Assembly: GCA_013368325.1 (NCBI GenBank)
Contig: JAACJK010000012.1
Location: 248,001-312,000, forward strand
Reading direction: 5' to 3'
Length of the DNA stretch: 64,000 bases
Source of the DNA: Ephemerocybe angulata
Taxonomy: Eukaryota; Basidiomycota; Agaricomycetes; Agaricales; Psathyrellaceae
Positions within the stretch are counted from its first letter, which is position 1. Every line of letters begins with the position of its first letter. This document shows positions 39,023-64,000 of this stretch, piece after piece. A program made the position numbers and the translations under genes. The notes below the pieces were generated by a model. It was not told where the DNA came from and did not search any database. It was given only the letters and a program-made list of their open reading frames with translations.

Positions 39023-39034
39023 TACGCCCTCCTC
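39023..39034 (-). other. Polypurine tract-like site
   Basis: On the element strand GAGGAGGGCGTA sits immediately upstream of the 3' LTR, where plus-strand DNA synthesis is primed in this class of element. Confidence 0.5.
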
Positions 39035-39058
39035 GACACTACGGTTGTGTCGAAACAA

Positions 39059-46300: not shown

Positions 46301-47831
46301 CGAGGTATAGTTCCTCGAGAATAGCCATGTAGACACGTAAGTCCCTTCTGCCTTGCTTAATAGTCTCGAGTTTCTCTCGCTGACGTTCCTTAAAGTTTAT
46401 AGGGAAGAAAGCGTTGAATAACTCGGTGAAAAACTTAGACGGCTTCCACGACTTGACCTTCGGTGCAACCACTCGGTCATACCAAATACGTGCCCTGCCC
46501 TTCAAGAACGGACTGAGACGATAAACCATTTTATTCCTAGGTATGTTGGTATCCTCCAAGTACATCATCGACTGTGATACAAATTGATTGTACTTGGGGA
46601 CATTAGCATCGCCATGATAGTCATCGGGCGGTATAGGCTTCCAGGTGGCCTTGACCACCCGGGCCCTTTTACGCGCCCTCCTGCCGGAGTCCGACTCTGA
46701 AGACGACGAGTCCGAGGGCTCTTCATCGTCGTCGTCGTCGTCGTCTCCATCATCGTCTCCATCGTCGTCGGGCTCTTCACTGCCCGACTCGGTCTGTCCA
46801 TCGTCGTCATCGTCATCCGACGGCTCGTTGTCATCATCGGAATCAGGTTCCGATCCGGGATCGGAGGGCTCGCTGGTCGAGTACCTTCGCTTCGCTTTCC
46901 CGGATTTCTTTTTATCCAGCTTCTCGGTCCTTTTGAGGGCCTTAGCAACGTAACTCGTGGTCTCAAGCTGGTCGGCTGGTTTCGGGAGGGGTTTGTTCTT
47001 CTTGGCCTTTTTCTCGGGCTTGTCCTCCTTGGTCTTCTTGACCCTTTTCTTGGGCTTGACCATTGAAGCAGATACGACGTCCTCGACGACGTCCTTCGAG
47101 CTCTTCTTCGAGCTCTTCTTAGCTTTCTTCTGCTTTTCTTTGTACTTATCGCGTTGCTTACGGTTACGACGGTCTCGAGAGTTCAAACTCTTCTTACTTT
47201 CATCGGAATCACTCTCAGCAATGTAAGCAGTATTGGCAACGGAAATAAATTTATTATCGCGTATGCTATCATATAGAGCCCGCTGGGCCTCGACCTCTGA
47301 GTCGGATATGTCGACATCACCCCAATTTTTGGGGTCGATTCCTTTTCCCTTCGGTTGGGAAGGTCCCTCGCCGCGCGAGGAAACCGAGCTTCGGCGGGAG
47401 CGACTCTCGAAAAGACGCCTCCCTGCAATCAGGTCTTTCTGACTGCGAGTGAGCCCGCTCTGGGATACTTCCACAGAGCTAAGCACCTCACTCGGGACAC
47501 TGGCCTCCTTGCGGAGGTCATCAAGGCTGCGCGCCTTGCGGATGGGCGTACGTCCTTCATCCGTGTCCGAAAAGAATTGATCTTCGGGCCCGACGCTGGC
47601 GTCGGCACCCTTGATCTCAGCCTCCTCCATCTTGGCCGAAGCCAAGTCCGAGGGCCCGTTGGGCTCGTCCAAGTCCGTCAACGGGGATGAGCCAGGAAGC
47701 CTCATCGTAGCAACAATGGTTTTGGAAGAGGGGATAGGTAAACGAACGGGCTTACCTTTTTTCTTCGCGGCCCCAGCTTCGTTGGCAGCCGCCGTCTTCC
47801 TGTTACGCAGGTTGTAAGCAGTTTCCATCAT
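39120..47831 (-). CDS. Ty3/gypsy gag-pol polyprotein, 2,903 codons
   Basis: It starts at ATG 47829-47831 (MMETAYNLRNRKTAAANEAG). A long Ser/Asp/Lys-rich leader with a polyacidic run precedes gag (capsid-like part about residues 400-560, WYDRVVAPKVKSWKPSKFFT). The zinc knuckle CFNCEEKDHRSRDC is at about 659-672. A 350-residue segment of unknown role follows. The protease has LLDSG (Asp near 1101). The reverse transcriptase has YLDDIVIYSDSLEEH (Tyr near 1419); RNase H has VVTDACATG (near 1573). Integrase has the HHCC zinc site (about 2004-2045; CETCMTC), catalytic Asp in GIDFVGPLP (about 2068), IVSDRDKWFT (about 2130) and Glu in GSTERANRT (about 2168). A chromodomain-like end lies near 2370-2420 (YTVERITSHLGSG). 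The last roughly 480 codons overlap the second ORF and are probably not native protein. No frameshift between gag and pol. Confidence 0.93.
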   Translation of the reverse strand: MMETAYNLRNRKTAAANEAGAAKKKGKPVRLPIPSSKTIVATMRLPGSSPLTDLDEPNGPSDLASAKMEEAEIKGADASVGPEDQFFSDTDEGRTPIRKARSLDDLRKEASVPSEVLSSVEVSQSGLTRSQKDLIAGRRLFESRSRRSSVSSRGEGPSQPKGKGIDPKNWGDVDISDSEVEAQRALYDSIRDNKFISVANTAYIAESDSDESKKSLNSRDRRNRKQRDKYKEKQKKAKKSSKKSSKDVVEDVVSASMVKPKKRVKKTKEDKPEKKAKKNKPLPKPADQLETTSYVAKALKRTEKLDKKKSGKAKRRYSTSEPSDPGSEPDSDDDNEPSDDDDDDGQTESGSEEPDDDGDDDGDDDDDDDEEPSDSSSSESDSGRRARKRARVVKATWKPIPPDDYHGDANVPKYNQFVSQSMMYLEDTNIPRNKMVYRLSPFLKGRARIWYDRVVAPKVKSWKPSKFFTELFNAFFPINFKERQREKLETIKQGRRDLRVYMAILEELYLVTGIKDMQEKARCLFRGLRDETKARLRYEGLSPETSSYEQIVRRAEFAQLADSMSALHTDRGQEDRRESGNRRDGNQSSRARGKGRSQNGYYGRKTNGQTDTNSNQGKFKRHFEKAEQNKRDWKDKQNRRPARKPDDERRARLRAEGRCFNCEEKDHRSRDCPKVNTSRDKGTSSRNLPAYNVDLSLAAMGANDGPRLEDTTEAVDSLEIGAVHWAAQSDEYAWDYDVDLENPPHYLPTEWPDEIAEFFENTERPRKRYEPFDTDTFTFDPVLGHVVRSLLLGAPYQQDDSERDVYSKTRFLVWRTDIGYKISDGLYMDAPWVCLPWNDARKPLFNIAGWYQRQLDNLFGVPRNIRKFYPKKAHSEKCDVLIDMVQDRLEEGGPYPGEVYWTFESVGRFEVSYNRRRDRYVLYDDCLQFEVELRPEILKDEDVNLPKWYADLLRHTYEDMWANITLSSDQDVDEMLDMLNDEPSEFTEENFDILLMMIEREAREERLSKWQQDDEGCSHLTGISGTAPFSSNLYPGIQMVEAYAGAGGIEMCAQDFVPAGPAVYKELERNATSRKDEVRNVPEPVTIVASVEGRPVRALLDSGSLGDFISNNLADQLRLKKVELARPLNVQLATHGSRSKVNYGVTTQFQYQQVKELRYFDIIPLHNYDMILGTPFLHQHRVAVGMNPPRVVIGSNESLPIKGKGVRVLSSQAMDTRESELENAREEIRRYAEPICKKAGDTGLPPLREINHKIPIIDPAKKYRWRASRCPEPLRAQWVEKKNDYVKTGRWKPCTSFNTVPMLCIPKPSKTGEPPKLRTVIDLRERNANTEKLTCPLPDMEGILRRVAKAKYRSIMDGKDAYEQIRIEPEHVKHSAMATPDGPMLSYVMQQGDCNAVATFQTIMTSLFSPWLGKWIDIYLDDIVIYSDSLEEHLKHCKIVIDILRREKFFLNRDKIHVLCKEMKILGRVIDDQGIRMDPDKVDSLVKWKTPTNRELLRGFLGAASYLADDIDRVRVPMGVLFGLTSDKVAFRWDFTQQRAFEEIKRLAAKCKDHHRVPLDYGKDAPPINVVTDACATGVAGVVSQGEDWKSASVAAFFSAKLNKAQQNYPVHELEMLAGVETMMRHRDILQGTQFTWYTDHKGLIYLLNQRDLSGRQARWLEKIQGFDFKVVYVPGTENILSDALSRLYAFDAPGTVRARSEYTEHNIVSNDSLDRARITMPVYVGKEGAMAVLPPAEPLVVEVNAIGESDSAPEASGSATMLEPAVAPRRSVRIREAAQVMPAPLQPRRAGVPRKAAPKAAPKARDEVSSEAKGAQAGRKRGAGGGSKSTKPAVTVKPIAQPEKKKRVPKQTLPLPETGRPETGREFAARMRDHFVLKGPRERVEGASREFEMELTTHQAPAGAIPGDLGADASASETTPPSLVGVVRDANGIDLETIVRDTYYEDPFFSMIAKKPKDYRNFLVEKGLIYQVSEERRMLCIPKVLHNGRSVRELVIREAHSILAHLSFRKTLAYLRDHVWWKEMVGDVEKYCETCMTCRRTKSSNHKPYGLLHPLKVPTQPWDSIGIDFVGPLPESSDRNGTYDMIAVVIDRLTGMVHLIPGREDYTSREIAEMVFSEVYKYHGLPRTIVSDRDKWFTATFWDHLHKLIGTKLTMSSAYHPESDGSTERANRTVTQMIRQCIHPKQKDWAPKLPGIEFALNSARSETTGYAPFFLNNGRMPRSFLWQQPSKDEYPGVRVFATKIRNATMAAHDSILEARVKQTRNANRKRQMTPFTLGDLAYVSSENIRFPKGLVRKFLPKFIGPYKIVRDYGNNSFKLDLPARMKSRGIHDVFHASKLRIHVPNDDRLFPGRSDDQIWDYEGEGVENEYTVERITSHLGSGTEARFELLWRDGDITWLPYHKISHLRAVSDYLEAMGVSRITDLGAGTGKAPDEAQAELGTIGLDFGLVNFSAGYIRVTEFFDGPPNSRSSPNLNSHSKNASPTHQRIHSSSHPFPFPRAMGQGVAHAQGIQDPRRRVRGVLDVRAGSGRGGHAGPREDSGQASGLHGGEGRGVLPPRGLPHHRGGRERGPPLPTQVLRPGRARRSHRSPSPLRKEALRLQQRLQRSSAGRRQARQAALQASEARHEVGQARKGTQQEKRGHRGHPHRPGEATPQKVFRGGLPPSRSQGEEGQACSAQGQEGEEGPEPRMGAPRAASGYPDGARSSASGTHARRGRPSAEGPSSPQRARGTRNSSRATRQAEDSRLRSRLGHGEELRTFPRRALHALPGLFSSIAGACSESAEAERHGRGRVGRRRLDQLGRRGGGGGSAGAGISGGGHGDQSSRRSSGDRTRRPDHGRCLRNLRHCGSHTSPRLRPSPTYQRGYQELELPGRQGQGGFEGAGRAGRGRKGRGHGGPDSYF
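40455..40463 (-). promoter_or_regulatory. Internal TATA box upstream of the accessory ORF
   Basis: TATATAAGG on the element strand lies about 70 bp upstream of the accessory-ORF ATG (40387). The same nonamer is present in the LTR promoter. Confidence 0.55.
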
Positions 47832-47990
47832 TGTTGTTCTTGGGTTTTGGTTGTTGTTGTTGTTCGTTGTCGATGTCGGAAGTCGAGGTTGATCAGACCG
47901 CGGTGAATCCAGGGCGTCGACGACGAGGGTAGAAAAAGAGTAAAGTTTGTTAAGAGAGTAAGAGGATAGTGTTGATGAACGTCAAAAATA

Positions 47991-48280
47991 TGTGACAAGG
48001 AGTGATTAGATCACTAGTCTTGGCACAAGGTGAGTTGAAGAGAAGAGATTCTCGCGCACGAACTGACGGTTGAAAACTATCGAGTTGGGGAAAATCTACC
48101 CTACTGCTATGGCCCGAGGGCCCTTATATACATCGTCGAACTATTACTAAGCGGAACGGTACGGTACGGGGATAGGGATAGGCGACGGTGACGAAGGGGA
48201 ATCGGGGTAAGCAGAAGGGGAGATAAGATAGCTAAACTCGTGACCGTAGATAATCAAGTGGCTGTGAGCGATCCCTCACA
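47991..48280 (-). repeat. 5' LTR of the Ty3/gypsy element
   Basis: It is 290 bp, identical to the copy at 38733-39022. The outer edge is followed by GGCAG at 48281-48285. It contains the TATATAAGG promoter box. Confidence 0.95.
48122..48130 (-). promoter_or_regulatory. LTR promoter TATA box
   Basis: TATATAAGG on the element strand lies inside the 5' LTR about 290 bp upstream of the gag-pol ATG. An identical copy lies in the 3' LTR at 38864-38872. Confidence 0.6.
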
Positions 48281-49767
48281 GGCAGGCACCGCATGGGTCT
48301 CGTGGGGTCGTTCTGGTCGATGGTTGATACTGCTCTTCTTCATAAGCTTAGATTCCTCGACAGGCGCCCTCTCGACCTGTGTTGCAGGTGGAGGACTACA
48401 TTCGTCTTCGCTGCGGCCTGGGGTATCGGGCATAGGGGACAGCGGACTGCCATAAATGGGACTTGCAGATGCACCTGAACGTTCAGCTGCATCTGTCCTA
48501 GTTCCATCATCATGCTCCTCGAGATCGGGATCGATCGCAGTATTATCGAGGCCTTCTTGAGCAGATCCAGCGTAGCTGCCGGCCACGCTGTCCTGATCTT
48601 CGTCCTCTTCGAGGTCGGATTCTTAGAAGTCAAAGTCAGAGATAAGAAGGGAGGTTACGAAATAGGGGCAATGACAGACCTGCAAACGATCTGAGCCTCT
48701 CGCCCACACGAGGTAGCTCTAACCTGGCGTGATCCTCAGCATTAACGCTCTTCCCTAGGACACTACCTTCAATCTGACCCATCCTGATCGCCTGGATTGG
48801 CACAAATGCCATCTGCCAATAGGTACCAGCGGCGCCGTATACGATCTTGAATGTCATTACGACCACATCTCCTGGTACTAACATGGGGTTGGGGGAATCT
48901 CCAATGCGAACAAGCATATCGTTCTTCTTCCTATGCATGCAGCGAATAAGGTTAGGATTAGGTACCCAAGACGGGTTGTGTGGGACGCAAGCGTTGGCGA
49001 TCCAGGGATGGACGTCGTAATCTACGCTGAACTTGTCCTCGGTAACATTGAAGCCGGTCCGCTTCTGGAACAAAGGGGATGAAACCGCGAAACGGAATTG
49101 AGTAGATACAGAGAGAGGAGAGTTCCAAGGGTTTCTGGATTTCCCTTCGGTCGTAAAATCGCCTTTCCCCTTTCCCCACTCCTCCAGAAACTACAGGGTA
49201 TTTAAGTTCAAACCACAACGATAGGAAAGGTAGGCTCACCACCAGATGTTCATGCAGTCTAGGATCTGCCCTCGCATCAAAGGTCAGAGACACTTGAGCG
49301 GCCAGACTAGGTTCCAATTTCCTGTATAATACCGTCAGATATCGCAAAAGAAGATGTTAAGACCAATCGCATATCACCTCATCTGTCCCTTAAACTCCAT
49401 GGGAGGAGCTGCACCATCTGGACAATAGTTGCCGGTGTCCAAAGGAGTAGCATACAGTATCACGAACGCGTGAGTGCATACGATGTAGTCCTTCCTGTCC
49501 AGGTCCCATACCTGAAGCTCGTAAGCACAAAATAAAATCGATATAAGAGAGATATGTTACCAAGAATGAGCTGGGATACTGTGCTGACCGCTTCAAGGTA
49601 AATCTCTTGCTGCCCTTCTTAATCGCAGACACCAGATCCACCAGAGGAACCTCGCTAGCTGAGAAGCGCATTCGCATCAGCTTGTTGAAGTCTTCAAGAT
49701 TGGCGGCCATGGTCGAGAAGCGAACGCCGAAGAGACTAGGGGGCAGAATACTGTTCCACGAAAGCAT
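48254..49767 (-). pseudogene. Orphan gene interrupted by the retrotransposon (5' part)
   Basis: ATG 49765-49767 opens MLSWNSILPPSLFGVRFSTM, then LVSAIKKGSKRFTLKRSAQY. After an intron (donor GTAACA) comes QVWDLDRKDYIVCTHAFVIL and YATPLDTGNYCPDGAAPPME. Next exons encode KLEPSLAAQVSLTFDARADP, RTGFNVTEDKFSVDYDVHPW and PMLVPGDVVVMTFKIVYGAA, the last resembling a PGDxV..F motif common in Agaricomycete-specific proteins. The last exon is acidic and Ser/Pro-rich (IDPDLEEHDDGTRTDAAERS) and runs straight into the LTR at 48280, where the frame closes after eight LTR codons. The product would lose its natural C-terminal tail (about 25 residues, see 38646-38732). Everything else looks intact. Function unknown; I infer recent inactivation or truncation. 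Confidence 0.78.
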
Positions 49768-50289
49768 CAGCCCGTCCTTTATACCAGGAAGGGTTGACTG
49801 TGACCCTCTCGGAAGCGCGTCTGACTACCCAAAGAGTACTATGCGCGCATCGGGTAATTGAGGAAACGTTTTCAGTACGAATGGCAAGAGGATGATAAGG
49901 CGAGGGTCCATATGCATACCAGCCCCTCGTGACGGAGTCATTTGAAGAGCAAAGGACCAGAGAGCGCGCGACACACCGAGATGTGGGACCCGAGATCCAC
50001 TGTCAAGATAGAGAAAGAGCGCAGAAGAGACGGGATATGATGACGAGGAAAAGGTATCAAGGGAAGTGACAGCAATTATTGCCACCGTGGGCAACTCAAG
50101 ATAAACACGTGGTCAACCATCGAATAGCGGCCCTATAAATACCATAGTCGCGAGTAAGGGGTCGGACTTTAGAGAGAAGTCGAATCCTCACCCCCACACT
50201 TCCCGGTTAGTAACCCTACACCCTTCGAGGAATGTTCAAATCTGAATTAGAAGAGGTACGAAGGCGTAACTGAACAAGATATAACAAGG
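49768..50289. other. Divergent promoter region
   Basis: It lies between the interrupted orphan gene (-) and F-box-like copy 3 (+). TATAAATA at 50134-50141 lies about 150 bp upstream of the plus-strand ATG. Nothing else was recognised. Confidence 0.45.
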
Positions 50290-51424
50290 ATGGTACTGTC
50301 GAAATTCGAGAGATTCATGGCTACAAACCCTATTAGGACCAGGATGGCTATACTCGACCTTATAGCAATAGTGGATCTGATCATGATAGCCAGGTCATCC
50401 ACAGTGCTCGGCGAGATAATCGAGCAGTATAGAGGTTCTAGATGGGACATATCCAGATTCTTACGCTTCTGGTTTACAGACTCGGTAGATTTCAGATCAA
50501 TACTGGCATTTTCTGGAGCGGTCATCAGCGGATCTCAAGCACTGCGCTTTATGGACCGGCTGCCACCTGCTCCCCGTTCTGATCTGGATATAGTGACGCG
50601 AGTGGGGGGCGTACTACCGCTGTCCCAGTACCTGGAAGTCAATGGCTACAGACGTAGAGAGAGAACACCCCGCCTGAACGAAGACTATCCCATATTAACC
50701 GACGCGTTGTCCATAACCTCGTCCCAGGGTTTTTGTCGAGGAGGGGGAAAAGACGGAATAGTTAACATCTACGACTTCGAAAAACCAGCATACGGCGACG
50801 TCAACCGGTACAGCCCAGACTACAAAGTCCAGATAATAGTCGTGGCGCAGAATCCGGTCCATCACATTTTATACACTTACCATTCAAGTACGCATCTATC
50901 TTCCGATTCACCTGAACTTGAGCGCCACTGAATACCTAAACAGCGATGGTAATGAACTACATATCCCATAAAGAAGCCGTGTCCCTCTTTCCTAGACCCA
51001 CCTTTATCGATCGCGTCGGTTACCCAACGAGCAGAGGCAAACTCGGGGAGATCTGGCGTCCTAACTGGGTAATAAAGTACCAGGCGAGGGGATACAGCAT
51101 TGTGACGCGAGACCCAAAGCCTCAAGTGACTTTGGGAGGAAGATCTAGTAGGGACAAGCAATGCTGGCGAATGTGTTTCCACGGTACGTGACTCGGTATT
51201 ATAACACAGAGGCTGACGCTGATAATAAGCGCCCAGATGATGACGACGAGGAAATACTCGGGCAAGAACGTAGCAGCCAATACTACCCGTCAGCGACGGA
51301 GGACGTGCGTTTCGAACTGAGTCTGCTGTGCGAGACTGAGCGGAATGGTGCGCAAAAATACAGACTGGGCATATTTGAACCAGAGGTTTGGGACTATTTA
51401 TATCCATGGCATATTCTACAATGA
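50290..51424 (+). CDS. F-box-like / nucleotidyltransferase-like family, copy 3
   Basis: ATG 50290 gives MVLSKFERFMATNPIRTRMA, with a helical F-box-like start (IARSSTVLGEIIEQYRGSRW). The core has SGAVISGSQALRFMDRLPPA and PRSDLDIVTRVGGVLPLSQY, so here the NT-like motif is a full D-L-D. KVQIIVVAQNPVHHILYTYH lies before an intron (donor about 50887, acceptor about 50942). The next exon has VMNYISHKEAVSLFPRPTFI, matching LMNCVTG..AVSFYP of copies 1 and 2, and SSRDKQCWRMCFH. After a second intron come an Asp-rich loop (KRPDDDDEEILGQE) and the end FEPEVWDYLYPWHILQ, stop at 51422-51424. Homology to copies 1, 2 and 4 is by motif order, not high identity. Confidence 0.75.
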
Positions 51425-52440
51425 CGCAGGGAATAATACGAGTCCATTTTGAGGATAATATAGCCGCTTAGAATGCATAGAGCGAAGATTAAGGATGTGT
51501 CGCACCAGGCAACGCAACAGCTCCTAAGACGAGGGCCTGTACAAAGCTATTGACGCTTGTACTGTTCTACCACGGTCCATGCATCGCACTATTATCTAAC
51601 ATGTTATCCGTGAAACCCATTGGGTTTAGCTCGAGCAAGCTGCCTGTAACAGGCGCGCAACGTACATAGTGGCGACCTACCCTTTCCCAATTTTATTTGC
51701 CATCCACACTATACGCAACTCAAGAGAGTGATTGCGACACCTACTTTCGCCCCTAATCGATCAATCTCATTATCAGGGTACCCTAATTACAGAGTCAGAA
51801 GTATATAACCGGAGTAGGCAGGAAATAGTACATATAACAGCCTAAGCGCTTAGAAATAAGTGATATAAAGATACAGACGGGTCAAGAGAATGCGGGCCCT
51901 TCTGTGTTTAGAAAAGTGATTGAGCGCCTAACAGTAAATCCAAAAGGGTATAAATAGACGAATACGGCTACCTATATTTGATTGAGAAGACAGGTGAAGG
52001 AGATCGAAACAGGAAGAGCTATTGGAGTGTAGGCTAAATAAGAAAAGCTGGTCCAAGCGAGCGGACAGCCGTAAGATGCATAGAGCTCAGGCCTCAACCA
52101 TTAATGCTGTAGGTAATGAGCCAGTAAGCCAGCTAAGTAGAGGCCACGGTGGAATGCGGAAGCGGTGAAAGCTTTGAGGTATAGACGACAACGCACTAAA
52201 GCTAAAGGGATGAGCAACTGCATAGTAACATACATCCGGGAAACGGTCCGGATATACCCTGTGTGGGGCGTAACATTTGCCTAGAGTGACCCTCGTGCAG
52301 GAGACTGGCTGATACAGAGCCTAAGAAGTCAGTTCTGCTAATGGCAGCTGGGGCGATGAACGGTGAGTAGGCTGTCAAGCGGGACATGGTCACTGTGGAC
52401 TGACCAGGACGCAACATCTATGGGCCGGCACGCCTGTCGG
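51425..52440. other. Gene-poor stretch in the island
   Basis: No supported gene. TATA-like words occur (51800, 51950). No repeat of known type was recognised. Confidence 0.4.
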
Positions 52441-53436
52441 TTAGGTTGTAGTCGGGGTGGATGACCACGTCCCTTCTGACATAGGGGTCGAAGGAGCCGT
52501 CGCCAAAGGGGACACGCCTGGCCGTGTAGTAACGAGAGGCCGTAGCCCATCTCCCAAGACATAAGTAGTAATGATGCGAGAGAAAGGGCGGACGTCGGGC
52601 AGGATGGTTCGGAGTGCGCACAGTACGAAGATACTGTTCAGGTTGAGTGTCAGCTCTTGCTCGAGTATACAACCTGTATAGTGCAGCGCAAGTTTTAGGG
52701 TGTGAGTATATGGAACAGCTAGACCGGACATGCTCATACCTTGGAAGGCTAAGCCGGTCAAGGAATCAAAGAAATCCTGCGGGATGCGACAGACGGTAGT
52801 TTTGTCGTATCTAGACCCGTACGATGACAATTTGATTCGTGCCACCCCCAACGACTTCAAGTCTTTGTCGAAAAGACGAAGAGTACACTCGCGAGCGTAC
52901 GTCCACGGCGTGCGCGTCGCTATACAGCCCCCATCGAACGGACTGCCCTCGATACTCACGCTGTACAACAACAACAGAGGCGATTCCAAGTGAAAGTCGC
53001 GACCAGCGAGACAACCGCTTGAAATCCCCATCGTGGGCGCAGTGTATTGAAGGCTGAACGTGTCCGAAAGACGGCAGTATAACAGAGAGAAGGTGACTCG
53101 ACTGTCGTGAGGGGTATGTCCGAGACAACCGCTTTCCACCTTGTCTGGTACCTTAAGTAGGCCTAGAGCGTGAACGAGTGTCGGGTCTATAAGGGTGCAG
53201 GCGTCCATGCTGGTTGCAGAGCTCGAGGATGGATGAAGCAGCGAGCTTGGGGGCTTCGTCAGGCGGAAGATCCGACCAGACACCGTTTTCCTGTTGTCGT
53301 CCTCGTTGAACTTCAGCTTGAGGTATATCCATACGAAAGTAGTTCTCATGTCCTCGTGTCCCCCAGTGCACTTTCTACCCCACCGCGACGGATCGTGGGT
53401 CGCTAAGATTTGCCTGGCCAGTCGATATGCACGCAT
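52441..53436 (-). CDS. Orphan single-exon protein, 331 aa
   Basis: ATG 53434-53436 gives MRAYRLARQILATHDPSRWG. The frame is open for 331 codons without an intron. Visible parts are TTFVWIYLKLKFNEDDNRKT, ESGCLGHTPHDSRVTFSLLY, LFDKDLKSLGVARIKLSSYG and SFTLKL-like beta-rich segments (HTLKLALHYTGCILEQELTL). I recognise no family, signal peptide or membrane helix. It sits in the accessory island. The length and the lack of a comparable opposite-strand frame are the only support, so a spliced or shorter gene remains possible. Confidence 0.5.
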   Translation of the reverse strand: MRAYRLARQILATHDPSRWGRKCTGGHEDMRTTFVWIYLKLKFNEDDNRKTVSGRIFRLTKPPSSLLHPSSSSATSMDACTLIDPTLVHALGLLKVPDKVESGCLGHTPHDSRVTFSLLYCRLSDTFSLQYTAPTMGISSGCLAGRDFHLESPLLLLYSVSIEGSPFDGGCIATRTPWTYARECTLRLFDKDLKSLGVARIKLSSYGSRYDKTTVCRIPQDFFDSLTGLAFQGMSMSGLAVPYTHTLKLALHYTGCILEQELTLNLNSIFVLCALRTILPDVRPFSRIITTYVLGDGLRPLVTTRPGVSPLATAPSTPMSEGTWSSTPTTT

Positions 53437-55894
53437 AGCTAAAAGTCCAAGCGCGTCAACCCTCAGAAGCGAAAGCCCGATATGCGAATGCTAACCTTCC
53501 AACGTTCGGTCCAGCTTTTGGGTTGCAGAGCGCGCTTTCATGGTTCCGGCTGGTAAGCAAGGCGGAGAGCGCATTATCCGACGCGCAAGAAGGACAAAGC
53601 ACTAGACGGGGTCTAGGGGCAGAGGTGGGAAAAGGTAACATGCGAATGGCACTAAAATCGGATGGATGTGCATAATTTGACTCGGTTTGCCACCAGACAG
53701 GCAACATGTCCACTCAACATAAACGACTTCCTTCCCTATTCCAGCGGCAGCTCCGTTAAGAGAACACTGACGGCCGGAACAGAACGGCGTATATCTTCAC
53801 CCCTCTAATACTATCATCACGCACCAAGCAGCCGCAGGACAAGGTGGTGAGTGCTCTCGACCAGGAAATAGAGTAGGAGAGCTACCGAATTATACCCAGG
53901 CCGTTCACATATGCAGCGAACATAGGTGAACAGAGGGAAGCCAGCGGGGTAGATGGCATTAGCGATCGCCGACCATCCACTATAAAAGGTAGGTTATTAT
54001 GAAGATGAAGAGAGATATCTTAAAGGAAGTCCAACTGATACATTAAACCTCTGCCCAACTAGCTGCGGTACCTAACAGACCCAAGCCGCATCACCAGAGC
54101 TGAGGGAACATCGAAACGACATCTGGCACAGTAAATCCGTGTACTGCGAGCGGCGGAAGAGAGAACAGAGAGATCGGCGTCTAAGTGTCGAGACCAGAGG
54201 AGGTACAGAGTCAGTGAACGTATAAGATGCCGACTGCATCACCACCAGCGACGGTCCTAGTGCGGCCCTCGCGAAACTAGTAGACGCAAGTAGCAACACA
54301 TGGGAGGACAGTGAAGGTACGCCGAGCAGCGAAGCTAACAGACAACCAAAGTAGATGTGACTAGAAGAAAGATCCCGAAAGACTCACGAAGGAGAGACAT
54401 GGTTATATAACCACAAGGAGATGCATATGGAAGGTAGACCCAACCAAGAGAGCGAACAGAGGAAACCGGAAAGTCAGGAGAGAGGAAGAAATCGATAAAG
54501 GCGACACAACCCCGCAACTATAGGCCACCAAGAAGAAGAGGGACAAGGGGGGACTAAGGGATACCACCACCCAGTCCAGAGCCAGGGAGTTACATCTGGC
54601 GTATGCGATCGGAGACCAAGTAAAGGGCCCAGTCGGGGATGATATCCAGAGTACAGGCCAGAATAGAGAAGATCCTGACGTGATCCTGGACCAGGTTCCA
54701 GCAGGAAGATATACGAAGGTAAGATATTGGGACCCACCCGTAACTAGGACCTACACTGATAATAGAAGAAGCAAGCGGCCCTTCAGCACCCGAGAACGAC
54801 GCCCACCGCGAAGGCGGAATCCTCTAACAGCCTGCATATAAACATAAAGCTGGATGAGTAGGGATCAATCTTGTCGCCGTGGGTTTATACCGGGGAATAC
54901 AGTAAGCCGATATATCGGGGCCAACGGGTGTACCAGCTTTGATAGAGGGAAGATGCTTTACAGCATCTAGGACGACACCCAAACCGTAACTGGGGGATGA
55001 CCAGCAAGTATTTTCGGTCTATAATCCGAAACAGTCAGATTGCTATGGCTAAGGGATGGCTGCGAACGATGGATGGATTACAGACCAAGAGAGATACCAG
55101 AGCTAAACAATGTCCGATGGAGATATATCAAAGGGCTGGGACTCGATGCCAGTCAGACTACAGGAAACGCACCTGCACGGCAGCTAGGCGTATCTGTCGA
55201 CTGAGGGCTATGGGGACAAGCCGACGTCGATGATGGTAAGAAGGCGATATCTAGCCCTTGAAGCAAGCAGGCACTATTAGTGAGTCGAACTACGACGCTT
55301 ACATGCCGTTCAAAGCATCACTGGGTAAGTATCCTGCTTGCGCCTCGCACCGCCCACCTGACTACATCACTCACCTTATGTCGATACACGAAGATATCTC
55401 AGCAGATGTAAACGCGACCTCCACCCATCCCCCCACATCCGCCGTCCGGTACCATATCCAACAAAATAAAATATGAGGCAGTGGAGCAAACGAAGGGTCA
55501 CAGTCCGAAGTAGATGGCTGGAGGAAAGGATTTAATTCCCGCCTGTAGCCGTAAACGACCAGGGACTCAACCCAGGAGATGAGCCTACGAGGCCATCGCT
55601 CCATCCTACTGAAGGGAGAAGGCATGTAGGGGCCGGCTCGAGGTGGTACTCAGCAAAGGTCAAAGAGGGATACTAAGTCCGACCTGGACCGCGTGATCAA
55701 GGCAGCCGACGACATAATAAAAACGGCTAAGCATGCAATAATTAAGGATGTTGCGCCAAGTCAAGTCTGACTGGATATGCAACACATGGTATTAGCCACA
55801 GATAATATGAATACACGTCCCATGATTTCAACCCCTACATATTCACAGGATCGTACTTGATACCAAAACCGCATATAAGGCGTGGTGAAAAATA
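53437..55894. other. Long gene-poor stretch in the island
   Basis: About 2.4 kb, purine-rich on the plus strand between 54000 and 55500. A TATAAAAG box at about 53982 and several others suggest transcription, but I could not assemble a convincing protein. Frames at 54474-54737 (-) and 55258-55476 (+) are short and motif-free. It may hold a decayed gene. Confidence 0.4.
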
Positions 55895-58671
55895 CTAGAG
55901 ACCGTTCATTATCAAGGGATCCGACACGGTCCCAGTCCCAGCTACGAAGGCGCTGCTCCCGTCGTCTCCACCGTCCCTGACGCTACTGATCCGCCCACTG
56001 CTAAAGGAACCACGGATAGGCGCGTAAATCCTAAACAAACCTGTCTTCATCCCCGACCTCCAACATTTGTACACGAAAGTGGTCTATCATGAAGTCAAGT
56101 CACACGAATGTCAGCAGAGGCGCAAGGCATGTTATTAGAGTGGTTCAATGCGCCTTACCAACTGAGACACAGAAGGGTCAGCCAAGCAAAGCGTCACACT
56201 CTGACTTTGGCAGATGGCGGGTGCTCTGTCGACGGCCATTTGCAGCACCACAGCAGGGTCGACGTCCCAAGCAGTTTTGTACCGGTCGCGAATATGGATT
56301 GGAATGCAGTCTATGCCTTGAATGGAACCTATAAGAGGACCGAGCTGACAGTCAATACCATGCCCGCCAACCCCATGCAAGGACGTATTTCACCTTGATT
56401 GCGCAGGATGCACTCTCTAATCCGATTGTTCCAAAGGCCTTTCGATTCTAGCAGTTCGAGGAGGTGTTTCGGGAACGCAGTCGGGACACCTGTCACACCT
56501 TCGGGGCTGAACGATAAGCTGGAGAGATGATTTCCGTGAGTTACTCATACACGCCGCATAAGAGAAAAAATGCTAACCGAGGGAAAGGATCACAGGCGTT
56601 GGAACATCCGGTAATCTTTGAAGTGTCTCCGGTGGCAGAGTAAGCTGTTAACTCGCTGTTGTGTATTCCCTTAGACACCTTAGCCTTTAAAGCCGTCCAG
56701 TCGAAGCGATTAGAGGGACTGAATAGAGGCCAAAGGTCGAATGTCAAGAGTCCACGAGCACCGGAACAGGTCTCAAAGTCGGGAAAGGCGCCTTGGGTCC
56801 GAGCGAGGTCGGCACTCTGGTCCAGAGCGCTGTGCTGGATGGTTTCAGATATAGAGATGCTCAAGCGGCGAGCCTCATTGGAATCGTAAGGAAGACCCAA
56901 AAGGGCGAAAGTGTCTGCCAGCCCTTGTACACCGATTCCGAGGGGCCTGTTTGTCATCGAGTCTAACAAATCGACTTCAGGCAAATCAGGCAAAGGCAGC
57001 GCATTGGATTTGAAGAGGTTGCTGAGGGATGACACCAGCTGGCGTACTACAACTACGAGAGAATCGAAATCGAATTCATTATCCTCCGTAACAAAAGAGG
57101 GAAGAACCAAGGAGGCTGTGTGACAACGCGAAAGACGAGCTTGGGACGCCCACAAGAGAACGTCAGTGCTGGTACACCCCTGCGAGACGGTGCCGACGCC
57201 TCTCCGAGTGCCTTTAGCTAGAAGACAGAAGATAAGTACACAATATGGAACGCACACTCCAACAAATACCGTGAACGGCTTCCTTGAAAAGGGTAGAGGG
57301 CCAACCACAATCTATCTGTGTGGCCAGTATGTTCTTCCAAAGCTTCCTAGCCTTGAAAGTCCTGAGGCCTAAACCATTAGCTTCAAGACGTACATACTCG
57401 TCATCAAAACTAGGTCCGTGCAGTGCAGCTAAATTCGGGGCATCAGAAGGACAAAAGAGAGTCCACACTCCGTCTTCCTCGACACGGCGCATACTTAGCG
57501 AAAGGGGTTAGGGGAAGAGGGAAACAAGAGTAAGCCCATGAACTATACCGTATAGGACGACATATTATCAGCACTCACAACAAGCTATTAAGCATAAGCC
57601 CGTATCGAAGACCCTGATCGATACAGCCACCCTGCTTATTCAACCGAACAGTCCGCAAGAAACCTTCGATCTCAGCGTGCCAAGGTTCCAGATACACTTT
57701 GACCAACGGTTCCGGCGCATCCAAACCCCTATCCATGACGCGCATGCAGGCCTTCAGGGAATGTAGAGCATGGACGACCCCAGACCGCTTCAAACCGTCT
57801 ACCAATGAACTGAGAAGTATTAATGGGATATGCCGCATTTTATAAAAGAGGGAAGAGCACACCTTTGAGCAGGCATGTTCTGCATCCCGATCCCGATGTT
57901 CCCACCTGCCCTGCCTACGGTGGATATAGTCTTCATGAGCCTAAATAGCTCATCAGGACAGCCGCTCATATCGTACTGATAACAAGGATGAGATGGCGGA
58001 TCCTGGGTCCCACTCTGACACAAGACAGAAGCGCTCGGTACTACTTTGAAAGTAGACATGTGGCTGTAAAAGAGTCGGATGCTATCCATATCACCTGAGT
58101 GAAGGTAGACTGCCACCCGAAGCCACATATACTGAGGCCTCTCGTAGAGCGCCTGGCCATACCTAAGAAGGTATGACTTCTGAAGCAGGCGCAAGGCTGA
58201 ACTGTGGGGGGTGGGGGAAGGAAGTCAGCGGTAACAAGCGTAAACGAGGTTCGCTCACTATGTGAAATGTTGATCGCCGTCGGGTCGAATCAAGGAGTCG
58301 AGAACCGGGGCGCATCGGTCCACCTCGTTCATGAACTCAGGTGCCAATAGCCCTTTGGAGTAGGCCGCCTTCATAGCCCCACTGAATGTGCCTTCCGTCG
58401 ACTGGTAGAGGGCGTCCATCTCCAAAGCTGAGCTGATAATACCGTAGATAGAGCCCTGAGGCTCTAAAGAAGCGGATAATTTGGCGAGACGTCTCTGCAA
58501 ACGGCAATGGTAAGCGTACATCACACGTAGGCCAAGACAACTCAAAGGCCTTACGTCTATAGAGCTACTGTCAACAGCCAGTCCGAAACTGGATGCTCCC
58601 AACTGGCAGAGCCTGGTATCGACAGAAATTATGAGTACCGGAGCCATGCAGCGAGTAAAGAATAGGTTCAT
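55895..58671 (-). CDS. Divergent ribonucleotide reductase large-subunit paralogue, probably non-catalytic
   Basis: Homology to class I RNR large subunits runs along the whole gene in about nine spliced exons. In order: proposed ATG 58671 (MNLFFTRCMAPVLIISVDTR), SKGLLAPEFMNEVDRCAPVL, LQKSYLLRYGQALYERPQYM, SHPCYQYDM (first active-site Cys kept), GGNIGIGMQNMPAQ, VYLEPWHAEIEGFLRTVRLN, MRRVEEDGVWTLFCPSDAPN, FKARKLWKNILATQIDCGWP. Then GTVSQGCTSTDV replaces the usual SNLCTEI: Cys kept, Asn and Glu lost. LSRCHTASLVLP keeps the third Cys. Next are RPLGIGVQGLADTFALLGLP, GVPTAFPKHLLELLESKGLW, GSIQGIDCIPIHIRDRYKTA, RAPAICQSQS and FVYKCWRSGMKTGLFRIYAP, where the radical-transfer Tyr-Tyr of TGMYYLR is gone. 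The tail has no Cys pair, and no N-terminal ATP cone is visible. Stop 55895-55897. Confidence 0.85.
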
Positions 58672-59706
58672 ACGTATCCAGAGCGGCTATACAACCCTCG
58701 TGGACCATCCGGTCACCCATAAGCTGTAGGATGTAAGAAGAATAGATCATACATTCGACTCACGAACCACATACCAACGCAAGTCTACGGATGAGCTAGA
58801 CAGGCCAAGGTAGACCCGTAAACAAACAATATAAGTAATTACTAACTCTGGGCTTGAGAATTAAAACAAGCACCTTAAAACCATCGTACTCCTCTATTGA
58901 TCTGGGACGACGGATGATGTGGGTACACTCAACAACCAAAAAGAAGGAAGGAGACCCACCCATCTGAGAGCGCAGGTCAGCCACGCCACGATAAAAAGTC
59001 AAGCAGATTGATCCACTCACTTCTCTTCGACACGAAACAACTAGCATCGGGATCGGCTCGCGCCATCTAAAAAGTTCGACAGCGAAGAGATGGTTAGATG
59101 GGAGCCAAACGCGGCGGCAGGTACGCGCTTTATAAGTTTGGACCGGAAAGGAGGAAGGTCCGCCCTCTCGACCCTGGTAAGACAAGCCTAAAGGTGCGTA
59201 CCGTATACTGAAGAGGGTGTCGTATTATGGGTCTGCATCATACGGTATCGGTCAAGGGCTAGGACATCCAAGGAGATCTTAATATGCTTTCGACCATGGA
59301 CAGAGTATGCGGCGTTCCAATCTTGAGATAGACCCTGCCGGTCACCGGAATGCAGACGAAACAAGCCGGTTGGATGCGAGAAAAGGCCGCGCACGAAGAG
59401 GACGGGCGCACTGGGCCAAAGTAACCACACCGATTCGGCAGAAGGAAGGCAACAAAAAAAGAGTGAAGTGAGTAGCATTAACAGGGCGAAGGGTGAGACT
59501 GACAGCTGAAGACTGCAGGCCTCAAGATGGAGATGGGGACCCGAGGATGTAAATGGAAAGGTTCACACGGGCTCGGTGGCATTTAAATAAGGTGGGAATT
59601 CGAATGACTCCAGTTCCGGAGACTATATATTTTCCCTTACCGCTGTTCCCCTGTGGAATATATGCACTCCTAAGATCCTCTGTCCTAGTACTCTCGCCCT
59701 CGCAGC
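58672..59706. other. Divergent region, RNR-like gene to F-box-like copy 4
   Basis: Minus-strand frames (58796-59185, 59188-59478) show no RNR ATP-cone motif and are not called, although a missing 5' exon of the RNR-like gene could lie here. TATATAT at about 59623 lies 80 bp upstream of the ATG at 59707. Confidence 0.4.
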
Positions 59707-60911
59707 ATGACTTCCCTATCGCAGTCTAAAATCACCCATAGACCTATCGGCGAGCTTGAAAGGTTCATGCTCTGCGCGCCGGACGATACTGTAAACGCCA
59801 TGCTTCACGGTTTAGACGTAGCCGACATCGTCAAGCTGGGATTGCTCAACTCTCGCCTCAGATACCGCGTCCACATATACAACAGGGCAACTTGGAACTT
59901 CGAAGCGTTTCTGAGTAGGTACACGCTCAGACCAACCACTCTACTAGCGCTAGCGGACGGGACCAACGCCATGATATACGGTCGATCGGTGCATCGATAC
60001 CTACTCAGGTGTGCCGACAACAAATGCACATTAGACATATGCACCACACTATCCAGATTTTATGAGCTCAACAGGTTCCTCACAGACGACGGCTACCGTC
60101 TAGCGCGTCCAGGTCGGAAATATGGTAGAACGACGTACGAAGCAATAGGCAATCTCCTACATCAAGCCGGAGTCACCCACAATACATGGTCTCTCACAGC
60201 GGACCGGAGCTGGTCTGCCGAAGAGCACTTAGGCCACCATTTCAGGTACTGCAAATGGTACAAAGGGCGACACGTACAGATCAAGCTACACCTGGTTAGA
60301 TGCGAACCGTACCGACACGTACTGGGCGCTGCTTTGTGTGAGTGCCCCGATTCTATAAGTATAGTTGAATACCTAGTGAAATCCGTCACTGATCAACTAT
60401 TCAGCGTCCTTGACTTGTTACATGACGGGACAGGAAGCGGTGGCACCATTCGCCTGCTCCACCTTCGTGCATAAAGTCGCCTTTTCTTTGCGAAACTTCC
60501 GAAGTCTGACGCCTAACCTCCGGGGAGAACACACAGTCACTGACTTTGAGAGGGACGAAGTCCACGTCCACAAAATAGCCCATGGGCCACCTAACGGCTC
60601 TCGCACTTACCCTTCCGCAGAGACCGGAGCGAGGAGGCTTGGAGATGCGCGATGCTGGACTATACCTCGAAACTTCGAAAGTGAGTCACACCAATCGCCG
60701 AACCCTGGCCCAGAACATGCAAACCCCAAGTAGGGGGAACGAGTCGAAGACGGATATAAATGACTGATTTACTACCCATTACCCGTGTACAGATCCCATG
60801 CGACCGCCTACTCCCAGCAAAGGACCTGCATTCGAAGTACTAGACTGGTCTCTAGTTAGAGACAAAGCAGGAACGTACCTCAGCATCGGGGAACCTTTCG
60901 TATGGAGGTAA
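59707..60911 (+). CDS. F-box-like / nucleotidyltransferase-like family, copy 4
   Basis: ATG 59707 gives MTSLSQSKITHRPIGELERF, with an F-box-like segment DVADIVKLGLLNSRLRYRVH. The core has AMIYGRSVHRYLLRCADNKC and TLDICTTLSRFYELNRFLTD, where the GS..DLD pattern has decayed to GRS..LDI. GRHVQIKLHLVRCEPYRHVL leads to an intron (donor GTGAGT at about 60338). The next exon reads LTCYMTGQEAVAPFACSTFV, matching VMNYISHKEAVSLFPRPTF of copy 3, then RRLGDARCWTIP. A second intron (about 60681-60790) precedes FEVLDWSLVRDKAGTYLSIG and EPFVWR, stop TAA 60909-60911. The exon structure (two introns at matching places) supports common ancestry with copy 3. Confidence 0.7.
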
Positions 60912-61387
60912 GCGTATGAAAATCGTCATACCCTATGTCAAGCGGCTGATCGGCTCCAAGCTCGAGGTACTATTACGCCAACCGTAGCGAATCGAGGACA
61001 GCCGGTCCCCAAGACCATTGACTCGAACGAAAAGGGAGCGGAATTACGGGGATAGCTCAGTTAGCAGATATCGGATAGGGTAGATTAGAGACGGTGACTA
61101 CAGTCAGTCAAATTTGTATATAAGGGGAGGGGGACGGGCACTCATAATATATACGAAATCGAACAGAGACTCTTCTCCCTCCGATGCACACCGCCATCTG
61201 GGAAGAACTCCCCGCGATAATGAAAGTGGGTAATTAAAAGGTTAAATACAGACGAGAAATACCGAGACCTAACGACGAGACAATCCGCGAGCAGCACCCC
61301 AAAGGCCAAAGCTTCGCTCCGGGTGCAGCCAAGGTGAGACCTAAGAAGAGACAACAAATGGCCACAGCATAGACTGACATTATAAAT
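60912..61387. other. Short intergenic region
   Basis: It contains GTATATAAGG at about 61117-61126 and a second TATA-like run immediately before the next ATG. A tRNA-like word near 61047 is incomplete and rejected. Confidence 0.4.
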
Positions 61388-61783
61388 ATGCAGGCAAAAA
61401 CCCTAGAGGTCTTGGCTGTCCGTCACGACGCGCTGCTTCCCGTAGTATGGGAGGCCCCAGTGTTGACGTCCATGTCAGGTCGAGTCCGATCGGAGGAAAT
61501 CGACTTGGAGAGGGACATGTTCCCTAATGGTTATATCGGAGTCCTGTTCTGCACCATACCGTCTACAAACAGGCCCCTCCCATTCGCTTACAGAGTGTAC
61601 ATAGACCCTGGCAATCGGGGTCCACCTCCCCTCAACAAATGCTTTGAGAGGGTGTTCGGTACTCCTTGGATGGGTAACGTCGTTATTGCCAAGTACGCTC
61701 GCAACAACACGCCAGATAGAAGGCTCTTCTGCAACCTGGGACGCCAGGAGCACGAGCTCATACTTTGTCTGGTAGGAGAGTAA
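61388..61783 (+). CDS. Orphan small protein, 131 aa
   Basis: A single open frame from ATG 61388 to the stop at 61781-61783. Visible segments are MQAKTLEVLAVRHDALLPVV, RSEEIDLERDMFPNGYIGVL, YRVYIDPGNRGPPPLNKCFE and GTPWMGNVVIAKYARNN. The pattern of a Pro/Asn-Cys motif followed by a W-x-GNVVxxK strand resembles small Agaricomycete-specific proteins I have seen only as hypothetical. No signal peptide or membrane helix. It lies next to F-box-like copy 4 in the same orientation. Function unknown. Confidence 0.5.
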   Translation: MQAKTLEVLAVRHDALLPVVWEAPVLTSMSGRVRSEEIDLERDMFPNGYIGVLFCTIPSTNRPLPFAYRVYIDPGNRGPPPLNKCFERVFGTPWMGNVVIAKYARNNTPDRRLFCNLGRQEHELILCLVGE

Positions 61784-64000
61784 GTGCAGAATGCGTAATT
61801 GTGATAGATGCAGTGGACTGATGTAATGAAAGAGCAGTTGGCTGGCCAAGATATGGGATAATACATATGGAATCAAATAGGCGCCGTAGTTTGTGGTCTA
61901 GAAGAACATACCGCACAAAATGACGCTAAAGGGTTTATCCATTCACCAGTATACAATCACATCATCTTAATGTTACATAGGCTATATTAGTACGATAAGA
62001 AAATGGACGAAAATACCTTCCCCAGATATCACAGACTGCAACGGAGGCTGCGCTAGATACCCAGCAGGGCGCCTAATGACAAATTACGAGTGTGATAGTT
62101 TGCTGAACCTTGTCTGTACACAGCCACTGATCCGCGTGTGATGAGATCAATCTGGCCTCTGGCTGCTGGGAGACATTGCAGGCGTGGGAGCTGTGCCTCA
62201 CAGCCACTGATCCGCGAGCGATGCAGGTTTCCGACGTTGGAAACTTGCAAGGCTTCCACTTCACCGAACTTCACCCTAGTTCACCCTTCTCTCCTCGTTC
62301 TGCAGAGCCCGACAGTGTGAACCGTCCGCCGTTGTGTTGAAGACCGACGTCGATGTTAGCCACCCATATCAGCGTTGACCGCCGTTGCCGCCGTCGTGTT
62401 GAAGACCGGCGACGGCTTACAGCTCTCCGACACTCCAGCGCCCCTCCCAATACAAAACAAGTCTGAACGATAAAGTAAGTATATTCTTCCGTTTTATCCT
62501 TCCAGGTACTGATACATTGAGCAGACGCGACGAGCACTTTCACTGCACGACGGTAAGCATACATTCACTCGGCGACACGACACGACGACGAACACTGACC
62601 ATATTTCTCATCCGTGACCTCCTTTACCTGCACTCGCCCTCGCTGCCGACGCCAGCACCGACGACTGCAGCCTGCCACATGCGTCGTCGTCCATCCAATG
62701 CTGCTAGCGTCGCCGTCGTCCCTCTCGCAAGCTCCTGAAATACAAACCTGGAATCAAGGTAAGCCATACATTCACGGCCCAGATAGTTGACGATGGACTC
62801 ACCTTGCTTTCAGACCTCACCAGGCTGCAGTCCGCCGTCGCGCTCAACGCGGCAGCCACCTCGTCGCCGCCTACCTTGCCACTACCTTACGTCGCTCGCT
62901 ACCAAGTCCTCACCACCGTCACCACCTCACGCAAGCGGACAATATCCATCACCGATGCCGCCAAGTTGAAGACCTGTCGCTAAGCTTTCCGCCGTCCGAC
63001 TGCGGCCACCACTGCACCGCCAAGCAACAATCACAACATTGAAGACCGCCGCCGGTGCTCAACCGCCACTGTGTCTCGCCATTGACTACCACCGGCGTGA
63101 TGAAGAGCCTGGTTCGTCTCGGTAAGTCGCACCCTCAACCTACCTTTGATACCTCTACTAACCTGCAATTCCGCTTTGCAGGCAACCCATTACACCTCCA
63201 CCTATACCAAGAGAACCCACCGCTACCGCCGATTTTCGCCTTTTTCTGTCTGTGCACGATGGGCATCCGACAGGGAGCCGCTCGTCACTTTCTTTCGGTA
63301 TTCTCTACGACGGGAACTGCACGCTTTCCTTGGATTTACCGGTTAGCGTGCTGTTGTCTATTGTCGGCGGCCGAACGATTCGAGGTGGCGGCGTAAGTCG
63401 GACGCTCTGAGCCCGACGGCGGGGAAGTGGGCAATTATGGGGCACCTATCGGCGACTTCGAATCCCCCACAGATGGCGACGACCACGGCGCGAGCGATTT
63501 ATCCCACTCCCGCGGTTCCCATGAGCCCCCGAAGTTTGGCGAACCTCTATATACCCCACGAGGCCACCCATCTCGCGTTCCTCGACCCACCCTTTCCAGT
63601 CGAACTCCCTATGTATCGCAACGGCAACTCATGCCTTCCATATCCGATTACCTCTTCCGACCGCTGGTGTCTCCCATCTACTCTCTCCTGTCGGAAGGTG
63701 AAAGATGCAATGGCCAAGGTCAGGGGAGGAGGATGGCAACAGCGAAGAGGGGACACCTCGCGCGCTTACCCCGTCGCCCTCGACCATCTCCCTCGGCCAC
63801 CTCTGGCTTTTCAGCGCCCACCATGACGGCGCATGCGACCAACCGACTACTTTCCACGCTGGCCTCCGGGACTGGTACGTTCCCCAAATGCCCCTGGCAC
63901 AATCAACTGCTGATGCGCCTCAGCCTCCCCAAAAAGCTCCTCCATGTCACCTCCCTGTATAATCACCTATTTAATGTAACTTATATTATTCTAAGTATGA
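61784..64000. other. Repeat-rich terminal region, no supported gene
   Basis: An 18-bp direct repeat (CACAGCCACTGATCCGCG) occurs at 62119-62136 and 62199-62216. The word TTGAAGACC(G/T) recurs near 62338, 62399, 62965 and 63046. Two donor-like sites share GTAAGC(C)ATACATTCA (about 62550 and 62759). From about 63380 to 63960 one plus-strand register stays open (GEVGNYGAPIGDFESPTDGD, then LMPSISDYLFRPLVSPIYSL) with a hydrophilic gag-like look, but it has no ATG near its start and runs towards the window edge. It could be the 5' part of another retroelement or of an intron-rich gene. Confidence 0.4.

Follow-up and report, generated by a model that had tools for sequence, protein, structure and literature searches.

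The stretch of DNA analysed here (the window) comprises 64,000 nucleotides of the agaricomycete Ephemerocybe angulata (Psathyrellaceae), corresponding to positions 248001-312000 of contig C154 (JAACJK010000012.1) in a genome of 58.67 Mb and 232 contigs, and it carries a gene for a homologue of the large subunit (R1) of class I ribonucleotide reductase (RNR). In our reading the gene encodes an R1 pseudoenzyme, carried by a family of giant Helitron transposons and kept for the element, probably as a binding subunit; we give this reading a probability of roughly 0.6. The anatomy is held with high confidence: the family itself, its linkage to Helitrons, a sharp terminus and the capture of genes together with their introns were all observed. 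Since R1 is Helitron cargo and not a single host paralogue, the element is the most likely beneficiary.

The window R1 and its catalytic residues

By fold and descent the window protein is an R1 homologue, with both R1 domains, the predicted fold and introns shared with the host gene. It is full-length and intron-bearing, and the reading frame stays open across GT-AG introns. Pfam recognised Ribonuc_red_lgN (E 1.4e-13) and, exon by exon, Ribonuc_red_lgC (best 1.9e-39), and sequence matches in the PDB also placed the protein in the R1 family. The NCBI protein P0001 (808 residues) is 100% identical to our 733-residue model over the whole length of the latter and carries 75 extra N-terminal residues from upstream exons. 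The coherent, end-to-end R1 reading frame claimed in a preliminary description, made from the sequence alone, is therefore confirmed. An AlphaFold2 model built on an alignment of 20 sequences reached a mean predicted local distance difference test (pLDDT) value of 71.9 and a predicted template modelling score (pTM) of 0.77; it matches human R1 with template modelling scores of 0.80/0.87 over 762 columns, a match that counts for less because it was favoured by the active R1s in the model's alignment.

That description had also reported three surviving active-site cysteines, of which two remain. HMMER and MAFFT agree in setting the host motif NLCTE against CTSTD in the window, so that Asn is replaced by Cys, the radical cysteine Cys428 by Ser and Glu430 by Asp, and the gap-free spacing both to the upstream GT(I/V) and to the next downstream cysteine supports this register and rules out survival of the full triad. 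Consequently the cysteine of SQGCTST is not the radical cysteine, and C218 and C443 are the only active-site cysteines kept (we take C218, C428, E430 and C443 to follow yeast numbering). The other reported losses hold up in the alignments: besides the Asn and Glu, the radical-transfer Tyr-Tyr has become Phe-Arg (GMYYLR in the host, GLFRIY here) and the tail is without the C-terminal Cys pair (CxxC). The DQGGNKRPG loop of canonical R1 is lost as well. The window protein thus lacks what marks an active class I R1, namely the Cys triad, the Asn and Glu of NLCTE, the Tyr pair and the C-terminal Cys pair.

The supposed absence of an ATP cone needs correction. Pfam calls none in the window R1, but the homologous N-terminal region is present in degenerate form, and its counterpart in related element copies can be aligned with the cone of the host; one intron in this region has the identical place and phase in the host gene on C65 and in the element copy C117b. 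The zero ATP-cone profile matches in the whole genome do not demonstrate absence, since introns interrupt the cone of the host gene.

A family of R1 copies beside one canonical gene

A search of the genome with PF02867 gave 66 exon matches, which were grouped by hand into 24 R1 clusters. One of these, on C65, is the canonical R1 that the preliminary description had proposed to look for: it has NLCTE, YYLR, a C-terminal CLMC, all catalytic residues and the intron-split cone, which excludes a genome without a working R1. The other 23 are non-canonical, and a number of this size rules out the lone host paralogue among orphan genes suggested earlier; the window copy is one Helitron cargo gene among many. 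Eighteen of the 23 were modelled (all except C74, C76, C26, C25 and C73; the C23 model is cut by the contig end), and dropping the near-duplicates C16b and C11 from residue counts and tree leaves 16 distinct element R1s.

Among these 16, N is kept in four, C428 in six, E430 in seven and C443 in seven, the first and second radical-transfer tyrosines in four and two, and C218 in five of the 15 that could be scored for it. At least one of the seven catalytic residues is lost in 15 of the 16; C117b alone keeps all seven, together with the C-terminal CxxC. A C-terminal pattern, G-x-G-[ST]-x-x-D-P, occurs in nine of the 16. As a tag common to cargo proteins it was rejected: in 241 kb it occurred three times, always in R1, and since 1.8 occurrences are expected in shuffles the count alone is not significant.

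Two protein database searches with R1 gave 1021 and 323 matches; the best 120 from each were evaluated, and scores were given only to candidates that shared most words with the query. Among the 239 R1 proteins listed, N-x-C-x-[EQ] is missing only in six E. angulata element proteins and in one intein-bearing record. No element-type R1 from outside E. angulata stood among the matches listed, a scope that does not establish absence. In one search the metagenome R1 P0003 ranked above two copies from E. angulata, P0004 and P0005. P0004, which is from E. angulata as well and lies on a contig not seen in this genome, is the orthologue of the C140 copy and has lost the same motif; an R2 protein, P0248, is encoded on a contig of 217179 bases, the same size as that of P0004.

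Linkage to Helitrons

A Helitron Rep-helicase lies within 60 kb of R1 at 17 of the 24 clusters (P 4e-7), and all 17 belong to the non-canonical set of 23. The genome holds 21 loci for the small subunit (R2), and 14 of them have a Rep-helicase within 5 kb, with gaps of 2.5-3.1 kb and divergent orientation in all 14 (simple binomial P 1.5e-19; orientation was read by hand from the list). Of the 30 Cyclin_N matches, 15 have a Rep-helicase no more than 6 kb away and run opposite to it in every case; 12 of these cyclins stand 3' of the helicase and three 5' of it. Across 11 units the R1 and R2 distances correlate (r 0.46, p 5e-5).

The unit on C18 has a Rep-helicase of 2048 residues in a single open reading frame (ORF) with Pfam matches to Helitron_like_N (2.6e-31), DUF6570 and PIF1 (1.3e-21); Rep and a PIF1-type helicase are thus joined in one protein, as in a Helitron. 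Its order runs from an F-box gene through the cyclin, the Rep-helicase, the divergent R2, further genes and the gene divergent from R1 to R1 itself and several F-box-like or unknown genes. Parts of this order are common to all four units whose ORFs were compared (C117a, C18, C220 and C154), the F-box/cyclin end being seen in C18 and C220. The cyclin domain of the C18 unit also scores with PF08613.

The window copy shows where such an element begins. Identity of 100% with C16:609502-612914 starts sharply at window position 35320, with flanks that are unrelated between the two contigs, and the two copies are 98-100% identical. The terminus reads CCTCCGGGCAGT..., its exact first base being uncertain by a few nucleotides, and the pattern TCCGGGCAGT-N3-12-ACTGCC of its hairpin occurs genome-wide at this terminus and at the C16 copy only; a terminal hairpin was also sought in the C18 copy and not found. 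Canonical Helitron1 elements have 5'-TC and CTRR-3' ends with a hairpin near the 3' end and insert in AT, and Helitron2 elements have an asymmetric terminal inverted repeat with hairpins at both ends.

Over the 2.8 kb of R1 the window and C16 are 99.7% identical; exon 6 of the C16 copy carries a single-base deletion, which is to be expected in resident copies of a transposon. Matches to the window copy resume at C16:632442-642955 (99-100%), and further on C16 carries R2 and a Rep-helicase 2.7 kb apart. Contig C154 ends in 7.2 kb that match C17:1-7225 at 99% identity, and C17 holds R2 and a Rep-helicase; owing to this overlap C17 is probably the continuation of the window element, whose own Rep-helicase then probably lies beyond the contig end.

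These arrangements bear on the idea that the gene is a regulatory R1 paralogue domesticated by the host, with Helitrons adjacent by accident. One intact copy at the window locus and the existence of a canonical host R1 would suit it, but the recurring spacing and orientation of the Rep-helicase with R2 (14 sites) and cyclin (15 sites), as well as the sharp terminus common to the R1 regions of C154 and C16 within different flanks, make it improbable.

Another Helitron family in this genome (C41, C92, C93, C179, C220:562579, C228, C39 and C94) comprises eight Rep domains that score identically, many of which lie close to the start of a contig, and has apparently been active very recently.

Origin of the captured genes

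The region compared contains four host R1 introns, which 13, 17, 16 and 17 of the 18 element models share in both position and phase, and three further introns are common to the element R1s (17, 17 and 18 of 18). The single intron of host R2 is present in all 14 element R2 models. Since host introns are kept in both subunits, fungal genomic DNA was captured. In a tree of 26 rows the element R1s form one clade (100/100) that does not stand beside C65; we place more trust in the shared introns than in this long-branch placement.

The introns also speak against an integrated large DNA virus as the source of R1 and R2. Large DNA viruses often carry both RNR subunits, and many linked orphans would fit such an origin. 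With a Helitron Rep-helicase in the unit, host introns common to both subunits and no viral hallmark in a selection of 20 ORFs that were scanned, a viral source is disfavoured and is the least probable of the explanations considered.

In the same tree P0091, from the plant Mikania micrantha, groups with the fungal host R1 (99/95); the record is possibly mislabelled, or the assembly may contain fungal DNA.

Selection on the element R1s

Selection was measured by pairwise codon models on R1 pairs, and five pairs were not used because their rates of synonymous substitution (dS) lay above 5 and were saturated. Four pairs of catalytically dead copies gave ratios of nonsynonymous to synonymous rates (dN/dS) well below 1: 0.23 for C114-C130 (dS 1.5), 0.22 for C18-C23 (dS 1.2), 0.19 for C140-C220 (dS 1.5) and 0.12 for C133-C154b (dS 1.9). 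Against a ratio of 1, twice the log-likelihood difference was 146-340, and all four pairs are older than the latest duplications. In these pairs, loss of catalytic residues and strong constraint are therefore found together. The very recent pairs are of another kind, with 0.73 for window-C16b and 0.66 for C133-C11, neither different from 1. Neutral resident copies together with purifying selection over the longer term are what is predicted for a gene useful to the element.

Where the constraint falls is also informative. Among 13 dead copies the catalytic-motif stretch is the least conserved 40-column window (0.22, against 0.26-0.54), and the WTLFCPSxAP stretch reaches 0.54. We consider it likely that the dead R1s are under selection for a non-catalytic role. 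The earlier proposal that selection had kept the fold and not the chemistry is accordingly supported by the four dead pairs and by the poorly conserved catalytic stretch, and not by the window copy itself.

The chief competitor is passive decay, in which a captured R1 useless to the element degrades as the Helitrons multiply. The near-neutral recent pairs, the broken copies C16b and C11 and the loss of catalytic residues in nearly every copy all agree with it. The low ratios of the four older dead pairs do not, and they exclude a plain pseudogene; nor does the better conservation of WTLFCPSxAP than of the active site, or the presence of G-x-G-[ST]-x-x-D-P in more than half of the copies, although that count is not above shuffles. 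Decay of this sort is therefore unlikely.

R2 subunits

Twelve element R2 models were scored; C50, C17 and C16:535885 were unmodelled, C189 and C181 are broken, and C98 and C223 are of another type. All six metal ligands are kept in eight of the 12, five of which retain the Tyr too, and the remaining three have Phe in its place. The R2 of the window element, judged from the C16b copy and from P0246 on the probable C17 continuation, keeps all six ligands and the Tyr. The metal site of R2 is thus retained more often than the chemistry of R1, and in several elements a dead R1 goes with an intact R2 site. An element-type R2 was also found outside E. angulata, in Coprinellus aureogranulatus (P0247).

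The R2 data, together with C117b and its full set of R1 residues and CxxC, give some ground for supposing that the element R1s are working or altered reductases, dead in appearance only. Five R2 models with ligands and Tyr would be in keeping with this. It is opposed by the Ser in place of the radical cysteine and the loss of both radical-transfer tyrosines in the window, by the four R2 models that lack a ligand and by the three more with Tyr changed to Phe, and we regard it as very improbable.

Two host R2 genes stand back to back at C146:36605-39148, with domain matches about 0.9 kb apart; one ends in FSLDEDF and the other is without that tail, an arrangement presumably reminiscent of yeast RNR2/RNR4. 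R2s of the different type, at C98:169755-170576 and C223:567001-567822, have all seven metal/Tyr residues and lie about 6 kb from another Rep-helicase, so that another Helitron subfamily may carry R2 as well.

A possible role for the element

The history that we propose would begin with an ancestral Helitron capturing intron-bearing genomic copies of fungal R1 and R2, with a cyclin added in many copies and F-box genes in the units examined. C117b, whose R1 and R2 both look complete, would be a surviving copy. R1 would have lost the radical cysteine, the Asn/Glu or the radical-transfer tyrosines in most lineages, its fold and frame being kept by selection. The dead R1 may then act as a binding subunit that associates with the R2 of the element or with host R1/R2. 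Perhaps together with the element's cyclin and F-box proteins, such binding could tune R2, or the host's supply of deoxynucleotides during S phase, and so favour replication of very long elements.

The step from binding to the tuning of R2 or of host deoxynucleotide supply for element replication is tentative. We favour modulation of R2 or of host R1/R2; variants in which R1 serves as a decoy for an RNR inhibitor, or in F-box-coupled turnover, are inseparable from it here. Similarly speculative is the wider picture of a transposon S-phase module of R1, R2 and often cyclin and F-box genes, once a complete RNR, whose R1 is now non-catalytic and whose R2 often keeps its metal site; it might control deoxynucleotide supply or cell-cycle state, or perform a new R2 chemistry, in the service of elements tens of kilobases long that replicate by the rolling circle.

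Several observations weigh against the preferred reading of an element-serving pseudoenzyme. The sharp end with different flanks was seen at one end only (window 35320 = C16:609502); the right terminus of the window element was not found, and no inverted repeat marking it was found with one 12-mer. On C17, R2 and the Rep-helicase are 41 kb apart. Cyclin_N matches are missing near the Rep-helicases of C117a, C117b, C153 and C16:527113, so some copies do without the cyclin. The R2s of C117a, C153, C185 and C216 have lost metal ligands, and the element R2s do not retain FSLDEDF, the tail of host R2. For the window copy the ratio against C16 does not differ from 1, and its nearest relative other than C16 is 41% identical. 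All seven standard introns are present in 11 of the 18 element R1 models, and of the four low-ratio pairs C114-C130 alone has two such models. Finally, R1 is broken in C16b by the deletion, and in C11, C189 and C181 as judged from aberrant models.

Further features of the window copy

The coordinates are collected in Table 1. In the annotation of C114, protein P0121 joins R1 to a relative of the gene at 52444..53490, as judged by eye. For the gene divergent from R1, two ORFs were scanned (window 59689-60471 and one C18 exon), with no Pfam match in either. The cargo proteins at 50251-50928 and 37043-38122 are fast-evolving; both start in an F-box-like manner and show a GS...DL[DN] pattern that presumably resembles nucleotidyltransferase folds, and the DNA of the latter is matched at about 20 other places in the genome. 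The nested Ty3-type element has one open ORF of 2953 residues and is no part of the R1 finding; its insertion is very recent, given its identical long terminal repeats (LTRs) and its presence in the window copy and not in that of C16.

Table 1. Coordinates of the Helitron copy, the R1 gene and the neighbouring cargo in the window
Feature	Coordinates	Strand	Remarks
Part of giant Helitron copy	35320..64000		Left terminus 35320; extends beyond the window as far as the end of the contig, C154:319493
Terminal hairpin GGCAGT-7 nt-ACTGCC	35326..35344		6 nt inside the terminus
Conserved cargo genes adjoining the terminus	35487..38122	minus	Mutually similar; very weak F-box-like start, E 0.084
Nested Ty3-type LTR retrotransposon	38733..48280	minus	LTRs 38733-39022 and 47991-48280, identical (290 bp)
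Conserved cargo gene	48639..49824	minus	No Pfam match
Conserved cargo gene	50251..51421	plus	No Pfam match in the window ORF; C18 homologue F-box E 0.00087, sub-threshold
Cargo gene downstream of R1	52444..53490	minus	Homologues in C18, C220, C117a; no Pfam match
Pseudo-R1 gene, P0001 / D9611_012821	55895..58612 (start approximate)	minus	Spliced alignment, NCBI protein identity, Pfam
R1 exons 1-2	about 58612-58555, 58494-58259	minus	By eye, within a few bases
R1 exons 3-9	58201-57863, 57809-57579, 57493-57270, 57217-56578, 56518-56394, 56328-56159, 56083-55895 (including stop)	minus	
Former catalytic stretch	57111..57176	minus	CTSTD for NLCTE (57176-57162) through SRCHTAS for AVCNLAS (to 57111); alignments
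Last R1 exon	55895..56083	minus	GMKTGLFRIY for GLKTGMYYLR; CxxC-less tail ending VAGTGTVSDPLIM; alignments
Cargo gene divergent from R1	59689..61780	plus	Several exons; homologues beside R1 in C117a, C18, C220

Two further repeats were noted. A sequence of about 160 bp at window 28637-28800 recurs at some 16 places in the genome, several of which match both strands (palindromic), and is perhaps a small non-autonomous element. Window 62449-63753 is 94-95% identical to C47:226224-227269, near another Rep-helicase at C47:231208.

Comparison with known systems

Canonical class I R1, as in human RRM1, yeast Rnr1 and the host gene on C65, is matched by the window protein in predicted fold and domain order and, for C65, in intron positions. 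The window R1 differs in being Helitron-borne, in its degenerate cone and in lacking the radical Cys, the Asn/Glu, the Tyr-Tyr, the DQGGNKRPG loop and the Cys pair. In mammals, SCF-cyclin F (an Skp1-cullin-F-box complex) controls the RNR small subunit, so that cyclin, F-box and R2 meet in one pathway; here they are separate genes of one transposon and are known from sequence alone.

Inactive R1 homologues are known from beta-herpesviruses: with UL45 of human cytomegalovirus and M45 of murine cytomegalovirus, too, a genetic parasite has retained an inactive R1 for a different role (PMC5469499). In E. angulata, by contrast, the parasite is a transposon with many diverging copies, R2 is still present, and no role of the RHIM (RIP homotypic interaction motif) type is indicated. 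The shared fungal introns lead us to take the origin as independent of the herpesvirus R1s.

Among Helitrons, HELPO1 of Pleurotus ostreatus offers a close likeness, with a Rep-helicase and captured genes, multiple copies in a basidiomycete and a nested Gypsy element in one of them; it reaches at most 13.7 kb and carries one to four captured genes of unknown or retrotransposon/viral type (PMC4289320). The elements described here are tens of kilobases long and hold full-length, intron-bearing RNR and cyclin genes; the terms ribonucle-, cyclin and F-box have no occurrence in the HELPO1 paper (PMC4289320). Helitron2 / FoHeli elements have a 5'-terminal hairpin (PMC5148889), and the window terminus has a hairpin as well; their asymmetric terminal inverted repeat and a 3' terminus were not found here. 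A review of giant transposons puts the upper size of fungal Helitrons at 14 kb and that of maize Helitrons at 39 kb and describes full-length host-gene capture as exceptionally rare (PMC6431247). No report of a Helitron-borne RNR was found in the open-licence literature; neither ribonucle- nor Helitron appears anywhere in a comparison of coprinoid genomes (PMC10182949), and no open-licence paper was found under the name Ephemerocybe angulata, although papers under older names exist.

Against this background, both subunits of a central metabolic enzyme, often with a cyclin, are standing Helitron cargo whose captured genes are under selection. The R1 series, running from one apparently complete copy to many dead ones with R2 alongside, furnishes natural material for the transition from a catalytic to a regulatory protein. 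By carrying genes of nucleotide metabolism and of the cell cycle, the transposon would be acting as large DNA viruses do.

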